From the NCBI GenBank assembly GCA_021162805.1, contig JAGGXZ010000151.1, positions 1 through 64,000 on the forward strand: a DNA stretch of 64,000 nucleotides, given 5' to 3'. The stretch is from Candidatus Poribacteria bacterium (GTDB lineage: Bacteria; Poribacteria; WGA-4E; B28-G17). Positions within the stretch are counted from its first letter, which is position 1. Every line of letters begins with the position of its first letter. Below, in pieces: positions 16,204 through 47,416 of the stretch. A program made the translations under genes and the position numbers. The notes under the pieces are model-generated. The model saw only the letters and a list, made by a program, of their open reading frames with translations. It was not told where the DNA came from and did no database searches.

Positions 16204-18588
16204 ATGAACGTATACAGATATAAACCCAACCGGGAAACGCTCGATCTGATATTAAATCTGGCAGAGGAATTCCCCGATCTTCATGATCTGATCTCATATC
16301 CACACGTGGGAGAATGTTTTCTGACCAGACTGGCCATCCTCTATGAGCACGCACCGAGCTTTCTACTGGGAGGCGAGGTGGAGTCGGAAAGACTTAGGGA
16401 ACTTGTGTTGGTGCTGGCGCTTTCATATCTGGATCGGTTTTTGAGGAACGTGCCGGACGTAAATCTCCAGCCAAATCCCGACCCCAGAAGAGTCGTCATG
16501 TCTACCTTTTGGCATAGGGATGTATGGGACCCTGTCGAACATCTGATACAGGCGGCAAAAGAAGGGATTGAAGGGGTGGAGATAGCGCTGGACTTTCACC
16601 CGTTTAATCCAACCAAGTTGCTACCCTGTGAGATCCCACCGAACAAACGTCATCAGCTACGTTATATCTCAAAGGAGCTAAACGTGAGGTTATCATATCA
16701 TTCCCCGATTGTCGGGCCTTACTCTTCACCTGATCCGTCAGGAAGACAGCTCTTTTACGATCCTGCCGAAAACGTTGAGCTGATGAAGGAAGTGATCGAA
16801 TTGGCCAGGGAGACAGGGGCGGAGGCAGTTGTGATTCACCTCGTCGATCCCGAATCGCTGGAAAGGATAATCGAGATAATAAACAGCGCCTCTGGAAGTG
16901 ATGTCGTCGTTGCCCTGGAGAATTACTATCAAACCGGCTTCAGACAGGATTCAGAGGCGTTTATATCGGTGCTGGAAAAGCTGAAAGGCATGCTTGATCC
17001 TGAGGTGTTGAATCGCAATTTCGGGGTCACCTTTGACCCGGGCCATTACAACGTCGAGGGCGAAGATCCCATAATTTCGGCCTCCAGGGTGGGTAGATGG
17101 TGCCGGGATAACGGTATTAGGATCGTCAAGTTCCACGCGACTGTCAATTATGGACCTTTACACTGTTTCCCACCCAATTACAGCTCAGACGTCCATGACA
17201 GAGTCTCGAGCAAGGGGATAAATAATCCGCTGATAATTAAGCTGCTGAGGTCAATGGGTCATATCTTCTCCGTGACAGCGGAGCAAATTGCCCCTCTTGA
17301 CGAGGAGGATACGAGCGTCATAGATGAGGCACAGAGGGCGAAGATCGATCTCTCGTATGAAGCTATCGTGAGGAAGGGGAAGGAAGTTCTCACTGCTATC
17401 CCACCTGATAGGCTGATCACAACCGAATTCGCCCGTGAGGAGGCCTATCAATTTATAGCCGGACTTGAGGGGATCGAGGGATTAAGGGAGTACATGATTT
17501 ACAGACAGGTTCAACAGGTTGCCAATATGACCTCTGAGACGGCCAAAACCGCTACCACGCTTTTCATGAACCTGAGCGAAAGGGAACAGAAGCTGTTGCT
17601 TAACTCCCTGGATAACCTTCTCCTTTCATCTATAGGTCCTGCTTATGGTGAAATAGGCCCCGAGGATGTGGAGGAAATATGTGAACGACTCAGCGGGGCG
17701 ATCCTTGAAGCGCTTAACAGACAGATGCTGGCGGAGCTTTTCTCGGAGGTTCGGACCCTTAAAGCCGGCGATGTAATCTGTCACGAAGGAGATGTGGGGG
17801 ATGAGATGTTCTATATCAAAGATGGCTTCGTCAGCATCTATCTGGATGAGATATCGGTGGCACGCTTAGGTCCCGGCGAGGTGCTCGGCGAGATGTCGAT
17901 CTTCTACAATTTACCCCGAACCGCTACGATTAAAGCTCAAAGCGATCTCGAACTCGGCGTTATAAATCGGGAGAAGGTTCTTTCCATCCTTCGTGAAAAG
18001 GGCGATCAGGCCAAGGCTCTCCTCTACAGACTATACATGACCTTGCCCAGGAGGGTCAGGGAGATGAACTTGCTCTATACCGAGCGGTTCGGATATGTCG
18101 GACTTGAAATCGGTCAGAGATTGATCGATCAGATGATAGCGCTTGAGGGATTTCCCCTGATGGTGAGGCTTGATCGGATGAACTCTGAAGAGCTCAAGGA
18201 TCTCTTCGAGGACGGTAGGTTTTACCCTGAAGGTGTGGTCATAATCAAGAAGGGTTCCGATGGATCGGGTATATACTTCATAGATAGAGGTTCAGTACGA
18301 GTCGTGGATTTCCAGGAGGATAAACCGGTGTTGCTGGCATTGCTCAACGAGGGGGAGATATTCGGCGAGATGTCGGTGATCGATCGATCTAAAACCTCAG
18401 CCACCGTTATATCAGAGGGGGCTTTCATAAGGTTCCTGCCGAGGCGGAGGTTTAATGAGATCCTCTCAAGCGATCCAGGCCTCTCCTATAGGTTGATCTC
18501 CACTCTCTGTTCGATACTGATGGATAGACTTTACAGATTGGATAGGTTGTTTAAACTCACCAAAACCTTCGTGTCTAACGTCGCCTGA
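16204..18588 (+). CDS. AP-endonuclease-2-like TIM barrel fused to two cyclic-nucleotide-binding domains
   Basis: 794 residues. Residues 1-95 are helical and unrecognised. From about 98 to 365 comes a TIM barrel of the xylose isomerase-like/endonuclease IV superfamily: GVEIALDFHP, LSYHSPIVG, AVVIHLVD, VVALENYYQ, FGVTFDPGHYN and VKFHAT carry the metal-binding Glu, His and Asp positions. Two cNMP-binding jelly rolls follow (about 511-620 and 666-775), with LGEMSIFYNLPRTATI and IFGEMSVIDRSKTSATV as phosphate-binding cassettes. The second lacks the usual Arg (Thr in its place). The first could bind cAMP or cGMP; the enzyme may be gated by it, which is inference. No such fusion is known to me. Confidence 0.75.
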   Translation: MNVYRYKPNRETLDLILNLAEEFPDLHDLISYPHVGECFLTRLAILYEHAPSFLLGGEVESERLRELVLVLALSYLDRFLRNVPDVNLQPNPDPRRVVMSTFWHRDVWDPVEHLIQAAKEGIEGVEIALDFHPFNPTKLLPCEIPPNKRHQLRYISKELNVRLSYHSPIVGPYSSPDPSGRQLFYDPAENVELMKEVIELARETGAEAVVIHLVDPESLERIIEIINSASGSDVVVALENYYQTGFRQDSEAFISVLEKLKGMLDPEVLNRNFGVTFDPGHYNVEGEDPIISASRVGRWCRDNGIRIVKFHATVNYGPLHCFPPNYSSDVHDRVSSKGINNPLIIKLLRSMGHIFSVTAEQIAPLDEEDTSVIDEAQRAKIDLSYEAIVRKGKEVLTAIPPDRLITTEFAREEAYQFIAGLEGIEGLREYMIYRQVQQVANMTSETAKTATTLFMNLSEREQKLLLNSLDNLLLSSIGPAYGEIGPEDVEEICERLSGAILEALNRQMLAELFSEVRTLKAGDVICHEGDVGDEMFYIKDGFVSIYLDEISVARLGPGEVLGEMSIFYNLPRTATIKAQSDLELGVINREKVLSILREKGDQAKALLYRLYMTLPRRVREMNLLYTERFGYVGLEIGQRLIDQMIALEGFPLMVRLDRMNSEELKDLFEDGRFYPEGVVIIKKGSDGSGIYFIDRGSVRVVDFQEDKPVLLALLNEGEIFGEMSVIDRSKTSATVISEGAFIRFLPRRRFNEILSSDPGLSYRLISTLCSILMDRLYRLDRLFKLTKTFVSNVA

Positions 18589-18606: not shown

Positions 18607-19614
18607 ATGGAAAAATGGGAGATAATAGATCGACGTGCTTTGATTGAAGACCTGAGCGAAGCGTTCGATCCTCATAGCGCTGAAGTGCTGGCGGATGTTA
18701 TGGGACGAGTGATATCCCAGTTGAAGCCTTTTAGCATTCTGCGGGAGGATATCCGCGAACTGAAAGAAACGGTAACCTTGCTCATCCAGGCCCAAGAACG
18801 TACCGAGAGACGTTTGGAGCAGCTTGCTCAAGCTCAAGCCAAGACAGAAGAGAGGGTCACAAGGCTTGAGATAGCCGTGGAGAAGTTGGCTCAGGCTCAG
18901 GCGCGGACGGAAGAGAGGGTTACAGGACTTGAGGAAGCTATGGAGAAGCTTGCCCAGGCTCAGGCACAGGCAGAGGAACGGATCACAAGGCTTGAAGCGG
19001 CTATAGAGAAATTAGCTCAGGCTCAGGCACGGACAGAAGAGAGGGTCACAGGGCTTGAGGCAGCTGTGGAGAAGCTTGCCCAAGCTCAGGCGCGGACAGA
19101 AGAGAGGGTTACAGGACTTGAGGCAGCTGTGGAGAAGCTTGCTCAGGCTCAGGCACGGACGGAGAAAGCTCTCCAGAATCTGGCCAAACAGTTGGGAGGT
19201 CTGAGCGATACCGTAGGAGGAGATATAGAGGATATCGCATACATCGTGGTGCATGATGTGTTAAGGAGGGAATACGGGTGGAAGGTTGGTCCGCTCGAGA
19301 GATCATGGCAGAGATGGGATGGTAAGGAGGTGGAGGTCAATCTCTTCGGCCAAGCCACCGATCCTGCCCATCCTGATAGAAGGATATGGATCGTCGGGGA
19401 AGCCAAACATAATCTGACTCTCAAAGAGGTCAGAAAATTCGTCAGACAGATTGCGCGGGCCCGTCGAAATTTGGAAGGAGAGGTTTTTCCCGTGTGTTTT
19501 TGCTACCGAGCTCGACCGGAAGTTCAGGATAGAATCCGATCTGAGGGGATATATCTGGTCTTCTCCTACGGTAAGCTGGTGTCACCTGACGAATGTCATC
19601 AAATACTCCAATAG
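18607..19614 (+). CDS. Coiled-coil protein with 21-residue repeats and PD-(D/E)XK nuclease-like C terminus
   Basis: 335 residues. After a helical head, five near-identical 21-residue units (type LAQAQARTEERVTGLEAAVEK, residues about 76-180; 63-base DNA repeats) form a three-heptad coiled coil. The C-terminal 130 residues contain VEVNLFGQ, then WIVGEAKHNL, a D/N-x(n)-ExK pattern of PD-(D/E)XK nucleases, as in DUF3782-type proteins. Whether it cuts DNA is not known. It begins 18 bases after the TIM-cNMP gene and ends within the ribosome site of the alcohol dehydrogenase gene. Repeat number could vary between strains. Confidence 0.75.
   Translation: MEKWEIIDRRALIEDLSEAFDPHSAEVLADVMGRVISQLKPFSILREDIRELKETVTLLIQAQERTERRLEQLAQAQAKTEERVTRLEIAVEKLAQAQARTEERVTGLEEAMEKLAQAQAQAEERITRLEAAIEKLAQAQARTEERVTGLEAAVEKLAQAQARTEERVTGLEAAVEKLAQAQARTEKALQNLAKQLGGLSDTVGGDIEDIAYIVVHDVLRREYGWKVGPLERSWQRWDGKEVEVNLFGQATDPAHPDRRIWIVGEAKHNLTLKEVRKFVRQIARARRNLEGEVFPVCFCYRARPEVQDRIRSEGIYLVFSYGKLVSPDECHQILQ
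18826..19165 (+). repeat. 63-base in-frame tandem repeat
   Basis: Five full and one partial 63-base units encode the coiled coil. Units four and five are almost identical in DNA, pointing to recent duplication. Confidence 0.8.
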
Positions 19615-46657: not shown

Positions 46658-47416
46658 ATGGGCAGGATTAAACAATCCATCGCTTGGTGGTGTTTCGCTC
46701 GTAGGGTTGAGCCTATGGAGCTCATCAAAAAGGCGGCTCAAATAGGCTACGCGTCGATCGAGATGCTGCCGAGGGAGTACTGGGATGCTGTGCTGGATCA
46801 CGGCATGAAAATCGCCATAATCGGCGGCCATGGGACGCTGACGGATGGGCTGAATAGGAGGGAAAATCACGATCGGATAGAGGAGGAGCTTTCGAGGAAC
46901 ATAGAGCTGGCCGCTGAGTATGGGATACCAAGCCTTATCTGCTTCTCAGGAAACAGGAGAGGACTTCCGGATGATGAGGGGATTCAGATCACGGCGGAGG
47001 GTCTCAGGCGTGTGGCGAAAATGGCTGAGGAGAAAGGGGTTCAGCTCTGTCTCGAACTGCTTAACAGCAAGGTGAATCATCCCGATTACCAGTGCGATCA
47101 CACCTGGTGGGGTGTGGAGGTCTGTAAGGCGGTCAACTCTCCCGCCGTAAAGCTGCTCTACGATATCTATCATATGCAGATCATGGAGGGCGACCTGATC
47201 CGAACGATCAAGGAGAACATCGATTATATCGGTCATTTCCACACCGCCGGTAACCCCGGACGTCACGATCTGGACGACGAACAGGAGATAAACTATCGGG
47301 CCGTCATGAAGGCGATAGCCGAGACGAATTACACGGGATTCGTGGGACATGAGTTCACGCCGAAGGGCGATCCGATAGAGGCGCTCGAAAGGACGTTCTC
47401 CCTCTGCGACGTATAA
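46658..47416 (+). CDS. Hydroxypyruvate isomerase-like TIM-barrel protein
   Basis: 252 residues, start ATG after GGAGGACGAAAC. Xylose isomerase-like barrel of the Hyi group: SIAWWCFARRVEPMELIKKA begins it, and CLELLNSKVNHPDYQ, KLLYDIYHMQIMEGD, GHFHTAGNPGRHD and GFVGHEFTPKG carry the conserved Glu, Asp, His and Glu metal or catalytic positions. Relatives isomerise hydroxypyruvate and tartronate semialdehyde or epimerise sugars; the substrate here is inferred only by family. It stands between a gene remnant and a fragment region. Confidence 0.88.
   Translation: MGRIKQSIAWWCFARRVEPMELIKKAAQIGYASIEMLPREYWDAVLDHGMKIAIIGGHGTLTDGLNRRENHDRIEEELSRNIELAAEYGIPSLICFSGNRRGLPDDEGIQITAEGLRRVAKMAEEKGVQLCLELLNSKVNHPDYQCDHTWWGVEVCKAVNSPAVKLLYDIYHMQIMEGDLIRTIKENIDYIGHFHTAGNPGRHDLDDEQEINYRAVMKAIAETNYTGFVGHEFTPKGDPIEALERTFSLCDV

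Follow-up and report, generated by a model that had tools for sequence, protein, structure and literature searches.

We find that a single open reading frame joins an endonuclease IV (EndoIV)-type TIM barrel to two cyclic-nucleotide-binding domains (CNBDs). This fusion is also conserved in a second bacterial phylum, which points to an uncharacterised family of enzymes under cyclic-nucleotide control. The gene lies in the window, the whole 64,000-nucleotide stretch of Candidatus Poribacteria DNA that was analysed, and encodes 794 residues in the order N-terminal helical region, AP_endonuc_2/xylose-isomerase-like barrel, helical linker and two cNMP-binding domains. Both Pfam families scored above their cut-offs: PF01261 (AP_endonuc_2) matched residues 116-352 with 44.8 bits (cut-off 31.1, E 1.7e-11), and PF00027 (cNMP_binding) matched two stretches with 123.6 bits (cut-off 27.5, E 3.1e-36), confirming the original prediction of a complete barrel and two cNMP-binding domains in one chain. 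No such fusion was known to the author of that prediction, and our searches of open-access papers for the combination returned no report. Each part is of a known kind; what is new is the combination of a full EndoIV-type ligand set with sensors resembling those of the PKA regulatory subunit (PKA-R). To our knowledge, the bacterial CNBDs described so far belong for the most part to transcription factors, channels and a small number of effectors. If our reading is correct, a CNBD-gated EndoIV-type metalloenzyme family would give cAMP-type signalling in bacteria a direct enzymatic output and, should the substrate be a nucleotide, reveal a new role for the EndoIV fold.

Table. Features of the fusion gene in the window, with the evidence for each.
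Feature	Position	Strand	Evidence
Whole fusion gene, 794 aa	16204..18588	+	Open frame from ATG to stop; orthologs with the same layout
N-terminal helical region, residues 1-93	16204..16482	+	No Pfam match
AP_endonuc_2 TIM barrel, about residues 94-379 (Pfam 116-352)	16483..17340	+	Pfam, AlphaFold2, Foldseek
Family-specific motif D-F-H-P-F-N, residues 130-135, at a barrel-strand end	16591..16608	+	
Putative ligand H166 (EndoIV H69)	16699..16701	+	Invariant 17/17; column shared with E. coli Nfo
Putative ligand H212 (EndoIV H109, by order and spacing only)	16837..16839	+	17/17; not aligned on Nfo H109
Putative ligand E239 (EndoIV E145)	16918..16920	+	Conservation, alignment
Putative ligands D278 and H281, motif DPGH (EndoIV D179/H182)	17035..17046	+	Conservation, alignment
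Putative ligand H311 (EndoIV H216)	17134..17136	+	Conservation, alignment
Putative ligands D329 and H331, motif D-x-H (EndoIV D229/H231)	17188..17196	+	H331 17/17, D329 16/17
Putative ligand E360 (EndoIV E261)	17281..17283	+	Conservation, alignment
Helical linker from barrel to first CNBD, about residues 380-513	17341..17742	+	No Pfam match; low-confidence model
First cNMP-binding domain, residues 517-598, cassette LGEMSIFYNLPRTA with Arg572	17752..17997	+	Pfam, cassette listing, Foldseek
Second cNMP-binding domain, about residues 664-758, cassette FGEMSVIDRSKTSA with Thr731 replacing Arg	18193..18477	+	

Counting the window protein, 17 full-length proteins share this layout, coming from the window's phylum and from Desulfobacterota-type genomes. 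Deltaproteobacteria or Desulfobacterales genomes supplied all seven full-length relatives found in one scan of 84,980 species genomes; an eighth relative was truncated by a contig end, and nearly all remaining loci kept from that scan were CNBD-only matches. In a tree of the 17 proteins, the window's phylum forms one clade and all others a second, each with a support of 100. Mean column identity reaches 63% across ten of the full-length proteins, overall identity of family members to the window protein is about 40%, and the N-terminal region is about 60-75 residues longer in the Desulfobacterota orthologs than in the window protein. Because the same layout recurs in two lineages that form two supported clades, the fusion is old and retained and not the product of chance or of an assembly accident. 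Its spread is nonetheless patchy: the barrel profile matched 3 of the 85 genomes of the window's phylum, a fourth (G001) carrying fragments, and 10 of the 292 genomes in the order of G100, so the fusion is dispensable in many relatives. In every match examined the CNBDs were joined to the barrel, and the family barrel was never found without its sensors; searches of phage, plasmid and viral-contig collections for the barrel gave no match. One ortholog (L143, in G149) has its coding sequence split across two frames, reflecting either an assembly frameshift or a decaying gene.

Membership of the PF01261 superfamily was recovered at E 0.1 or better for all ten family members scanned, with full-length L005 and L084 scoring under the PF01261 cut-off. 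AlphaFold2 models, built on an alignment of eight sequences, were of moderate quality for the barrel alone (pTM 0.74, pLDDT 68) and poor for the full-length protein (pLDDT 56), which was used for the CNBDs only. Foldseek placed the barrel model in the TIM-barrel fold with a probability of 1.00 against superfamily members; its best match was the epimerase UlaE, and Mycobacterium EndoIV, the African swine fever virus AP endonuclease AsfvAP and E. coli Nfo were matched as well. By sequence, the similarity of the barrel to EndoIV and CbiR is weak. The window barrel gave no match to deoxyribonuclease IV models, whose best match in the family was itself weak (E 0.0017, in one of ten members), and an hhalign comparison of the family profile with the single Nfo sequence was not significant. 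CbiR (NF041277) was the best-matching named subfamily for nine of the ten members, again weakly (best E 2.4e-6), and its equivalog cut-off was not reached (27.2 bits vs 105). CbiR, a cobamide phosphodiesterase, is sensitive to EDTA, its activity is lost on mutation of conserved His/Asp/Glu residues, and the AP_endonuc_2 superfamily as a whole binds one to three metals (PMC7733943). Such barrels are abundant in the host genome (G000), with 48 PF01261 matches, and the window itself holds a second AP_endonuc_2 gene at 46727-47365. Two further arrangements were seen. In G001 the fusion gene immediately precedes a further PF01261 barrel gene and then a gene resembling penicillin acylase; the same pair occurs in G000 on contig C11, away from the fusion (L115 and L159). 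At L182:1420-3819 (G083), an AP_endonuc_2 barrel continues into a C-terminal half, roughly 500 aa long, without a Pfam match.

By order and spacing, all nine metal-ligand positions of EndoIV are present in the window barrel as putative ligands (H166, H212, E239, D278, H281, H311, D329, H331 and E360), which speaks against the possibility, raised with the original prediction, that the barrel lacks metal ligands. Eight of the positions are invariant in 17/17 proteins, and D329 is kept in 16/17, being Gly in the most divergent ortholog (L144). The mapping is based on multiple alignment, a spacing test and conservation. In a joint alignment of the family with Nfo and 36 PF01261-type loci, from which the row for L175 was left out, all positions except H212 (8/9) fall on Nfo ligands, whose numbering and roles are those known for EndoIV. 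The spacing pattern, a loose regular expression drawn up after the family had been viewed and widened from an initially narrower spacing, was matched by 16 of the 17 members, Nfo, the host EndoIV (L145) and the CbiR-like L177, and by 23 to 30 of 20,000 barrel shuffles. The D-x-H pair is common to the family, Nfo, L145 and CbiR-like proteins (the CbiR of L175 was read by eye) and the genome's isomerase-type paralogs mostly lack it. The window barrel also has the epimerase core of four residues, E-D-H-E. Four residues of the family-specific D-F-H-P-F-N motif, D130, H132, F134 and N135, are invariant in all 17 proteins.

For the sensor half, Foldseek matched the C-terminal part of the full-length model to the tandem CNBDs of PKG and PKA-R (4z07, 1rl3), in line with the cNMP fold on which the original prediction depended. 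As that prediction had noted, the two phosphate cassettes differ: the first, LGEMSIFYNLPRTA, has the G-E pair and an Arg at the key position, and the second, FGEMSVIDRSKTSA, carries Thr there. Across the family, 15 of the 17 proteins have Arg at the key position of the first cassette, L001 and L004 having Lys there; in the second cassette Arg is again found in 15, the exceptions being Thr in the window protein and Cys in L085. The G001 fragment, which belongs to the same family and is the nearest relative of the window protein, has Thr in its second cassette too. Given Thr in these two and Arg in nearly all others, sequence comparison indicates that the second site is probably weakened in the window's lineage only. 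The earlier idea that one cNMP site is dead or specialised is therefore plausible for this lineage but does not extend to the family. We also considered whether the second CNBD might be a nucleoside sensor of the trypanosomatid type. Nucleoside-binding CNBDs of trypanosome PKA are recognised by Glu at the position of PKA-RI Ala202/326 together with loss of the Arg (PMC10959531); the candidate was rejected, as Ser and not Glu occupies the diagnostic position.

The genes beside the fusion vary between lineages. In G075 and G080, the fusion is immediately followed on the same strand by a gene (L113, L114) whose large product combines a pair of Guanylate_cyc matches with an AAA domain and TPRs. 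A homolog of this dual cyclase is present in the window's genome (contig C125:12000-24000, L185) and matches structures of adenylyl cyclases. Inspection by eye places the Asn/Arg pair in its first cyclase domain, where a metal Asp is missing, and the metal Asp residues in its second. The domains would thus have to complement each other, in the reverse of the order in mammalian soluble adenylyl cyclase. The dual cyclase occurs in 4/4 carrier genomes of the window's phylum vs 13/85 genomes overall, with a chance of about 3.5e-4 when counted by genome and about 0.05 by genus (4/4 vs 11/22); because of the count by genus, this co-occurrence is moderate evidence for a link, weakened by shared ancestry. 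Class III cyclases were found in all eight other carrier genomes tested. In three further genomes (L001, L004 and L008) the fusion adjoins a Ser/Thr kinase gene, similar in kind in all three, and the L004 kinase, the only one scanned, carries a CNBD; beyond the kinase, L001 and L008 have a Ras-like GTPase gene (scanned in L008). Elsewhere the fusion stands beside genes for PAS proteins (L003, L141, L142), an FHA kinase (L144) or a GAF histidine kinase (L139); in L007 a 5'-nucleotidase-like gene lies immediately upstream, and L006 has a comparable ORF. The neighbours also include housekeeping genes, among them birA and nusG. Taken together, the neighbouring cyclase and kinases support a signalling role.

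In the window, the fusion gene is flanked by a biotin ligase gene (birA) on one side and a coiled-coil gene on the other. The latter (18607-19614) starts 18 bases past the fusion stop and contains a 63-bp tandem repeat of 5.5 copies (18815-19160). The original prediction had called it PD-(D/E)XK-like; the spacing is as described and its C-terminal region does resemble this fold by eye, but the label is by eye only, because no Pfam family reached its cut-off. Such a neighbour was absent beside the orthologs in every other gene context read and, not being conserved there, is probably incidental.

The explanation that we favour, and to which we give about an even chance of being right, is a cyclic-nucleotide-gated metalloenzyme, in which cNMP-sensing CNBDs switch an EndoIV/CbiR-type barrel that hydrolyses a phosphoester or phosphodiester. 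It starts from what is observed: a layout conserved in two lineages, EndoIV-type ligand residues at all nine positions, a first cassette that is intact, and neighbouring cyclase or kinase genes; from these we infer metal binding, hydrolase rather than isomerase chemistry, the bound cyclic nucleotide and the direction of gating. A 3',5'-cyclic nucleotide, most likely cAMP made by the genome's class III cyclases, would be sensed by the C-terminal tandem CNBDs, binding at the first of them at least, and the helical linker would relay the resulting change to the barrel. The barrel, in turn, would bind two or three divalent metals and hydrolyse a small or nucleotide-like substrate at a phosphoester or phosphodiester bond; bulk AP-site DNA would not be its target. 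Hydrolysis is favoured because the nine ligand positions are kept, the D-x-H pair is common with Nfo and the host EndoIV, and CbiR is the best named match. Against it stand the fold match to UlaE, the moderate quality of the barrel model, the loss of D329 in L144, the change of neighbours from lineage to lineage and the weak similarity to EndoIV and CbiR.

UlaE, as an L-xylulose-5-phosphate 3-epimerase, points instead to a cyclic-nucleotide-gated sugar isomerase or epimerase with one metal, whose CNBDs would couple a carbohydrate step to a catabolite signal. The wealth of PF01261 proteins in the host genome and the E-D-H-E core fit this reading, which the original prediction had raised as a sugar enzyme. 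We consider it doubtful, however: a one-metal epimerase needs none of H166, H212, H281, D329 and H331, all of which are kept, most isomerase-type paralogs of the genome are missing the D-x-H pair that 16/17 family members have, and no sugar gene was among the conserved neighbours in the contexts read. The EndoIV-type ligands also suit a nuclease, that is, a second, cNMP-switched EndoIV acting on damaged or foreign DNA or RNA and possibly serving as a Pycsar-like defence effector, and in its favour the CNBDs score against the PycTIR CNBD in PADLOC and a cyclase adjoins the fusion in two genomes. Yet the PADLOC match is limited to the CNBDs, phage and plasmid collections contained no match, and neighbours such as birA and nusG are housekeeping genes. 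Moreover, the deoxyribonuclease IV models barely match the barrel, and the genome encodes a clear, separate EndoIV (L145; 311 bits vs cut-off 129.65). A regulated AP endonuclease or nuclease thus seems quite improbable; because the genome has its own canonical EndoIV, AP-site repair is unlikely to be the main role of the fusion, and the nucleotide-gated DNA-repair enzyme proposed at the outset is not supported.

Within the hydrolase explanation, a narrower form would make the protein a feedback cNMP phosphodiesterase, its barrel hydrolysing the product of the neighbouring cyclase and its CNBDs serving as allosteric sensors, much as tandem GAF domains do in mammalian PDEs. Besides the phosphodiesterase-type ligand set and the adjoining cyclase in G075 and G080, the 5'-nucleotidase-like gene of L007 and the similar ORF of L006 would fit an AMP product. 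This neighbour evidence is circumstantial and lineage-specific, however, and we know of no cNMP phosphodiesterase in the EndoIV superfamily; we hold this form to be unlikely. The same low expectation applies to the bolder proposal of a new EndoIV-fold cNMP phosphodiesterase or nucleotide hydrolase under allosteric control by tandem CNBDs of the PKA-R kind and partnered by a dual cyclase whose domains appear to complement each other. Finally, the barrel might bind a metal or ligand without turnover, making the protein a pseudo-enzyme or scaffold that acts as a cNMP-dependent regulator. The signalling neighbours (kinases, PAS and GAF proteins, cyclase) would suit such a role, as would the cassette changes, which indicate drift of the sensor part, but the residues of the active face are the most conserved, with eight ligands invariant despite the modest overall identity, and we regard this option as very improbable.

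Among known systems, EndoIV (Nfo, TIGR00587) shares with the fusion the PF01261 TIM barrel, the nine metal-ligand positions (by order and spacing) and the D-x-H motif, whereas the window barrel has no significant EndoIV family match and the fusion adds an N-terminal region, a linker and two CNBDs. CbiR resembles it in the H, E, DxxH, H, E core and in being the best-scoring named subfamily, but the CbiR model comprises 249 positions without regulatory domains, and no cobamide genes were seen beside the fusions in the contexts examined. UlaE has the best-matching fold and the same four-residue core, although epimerases carry no regulatory domains and most epimerase-type paralogs lack D-x-H. PycTIR likewise combines a cNMP sensor with an effector enzyme and shows similarity at the level of the CNBD, and a class III cyclase lies near the fusion in two genomes. 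Unlike PycTIR, the fusion has a barrel as effector (Pfam found no TIR domain in the window protein), two CNBDs, and a large dual cyclase-AAA-TPR protein in place of PycC. The closest parallel for the sensor half is the PKA regulatory subunit and PKG, with their tandem CNBDs, PBC-type cassette and matching fold; in the fusion, however, the second cassette of the window's lineage carries Thr, and the CNBDs are joined to a metalloenzyme-type barrel instead of regulating a kinase.
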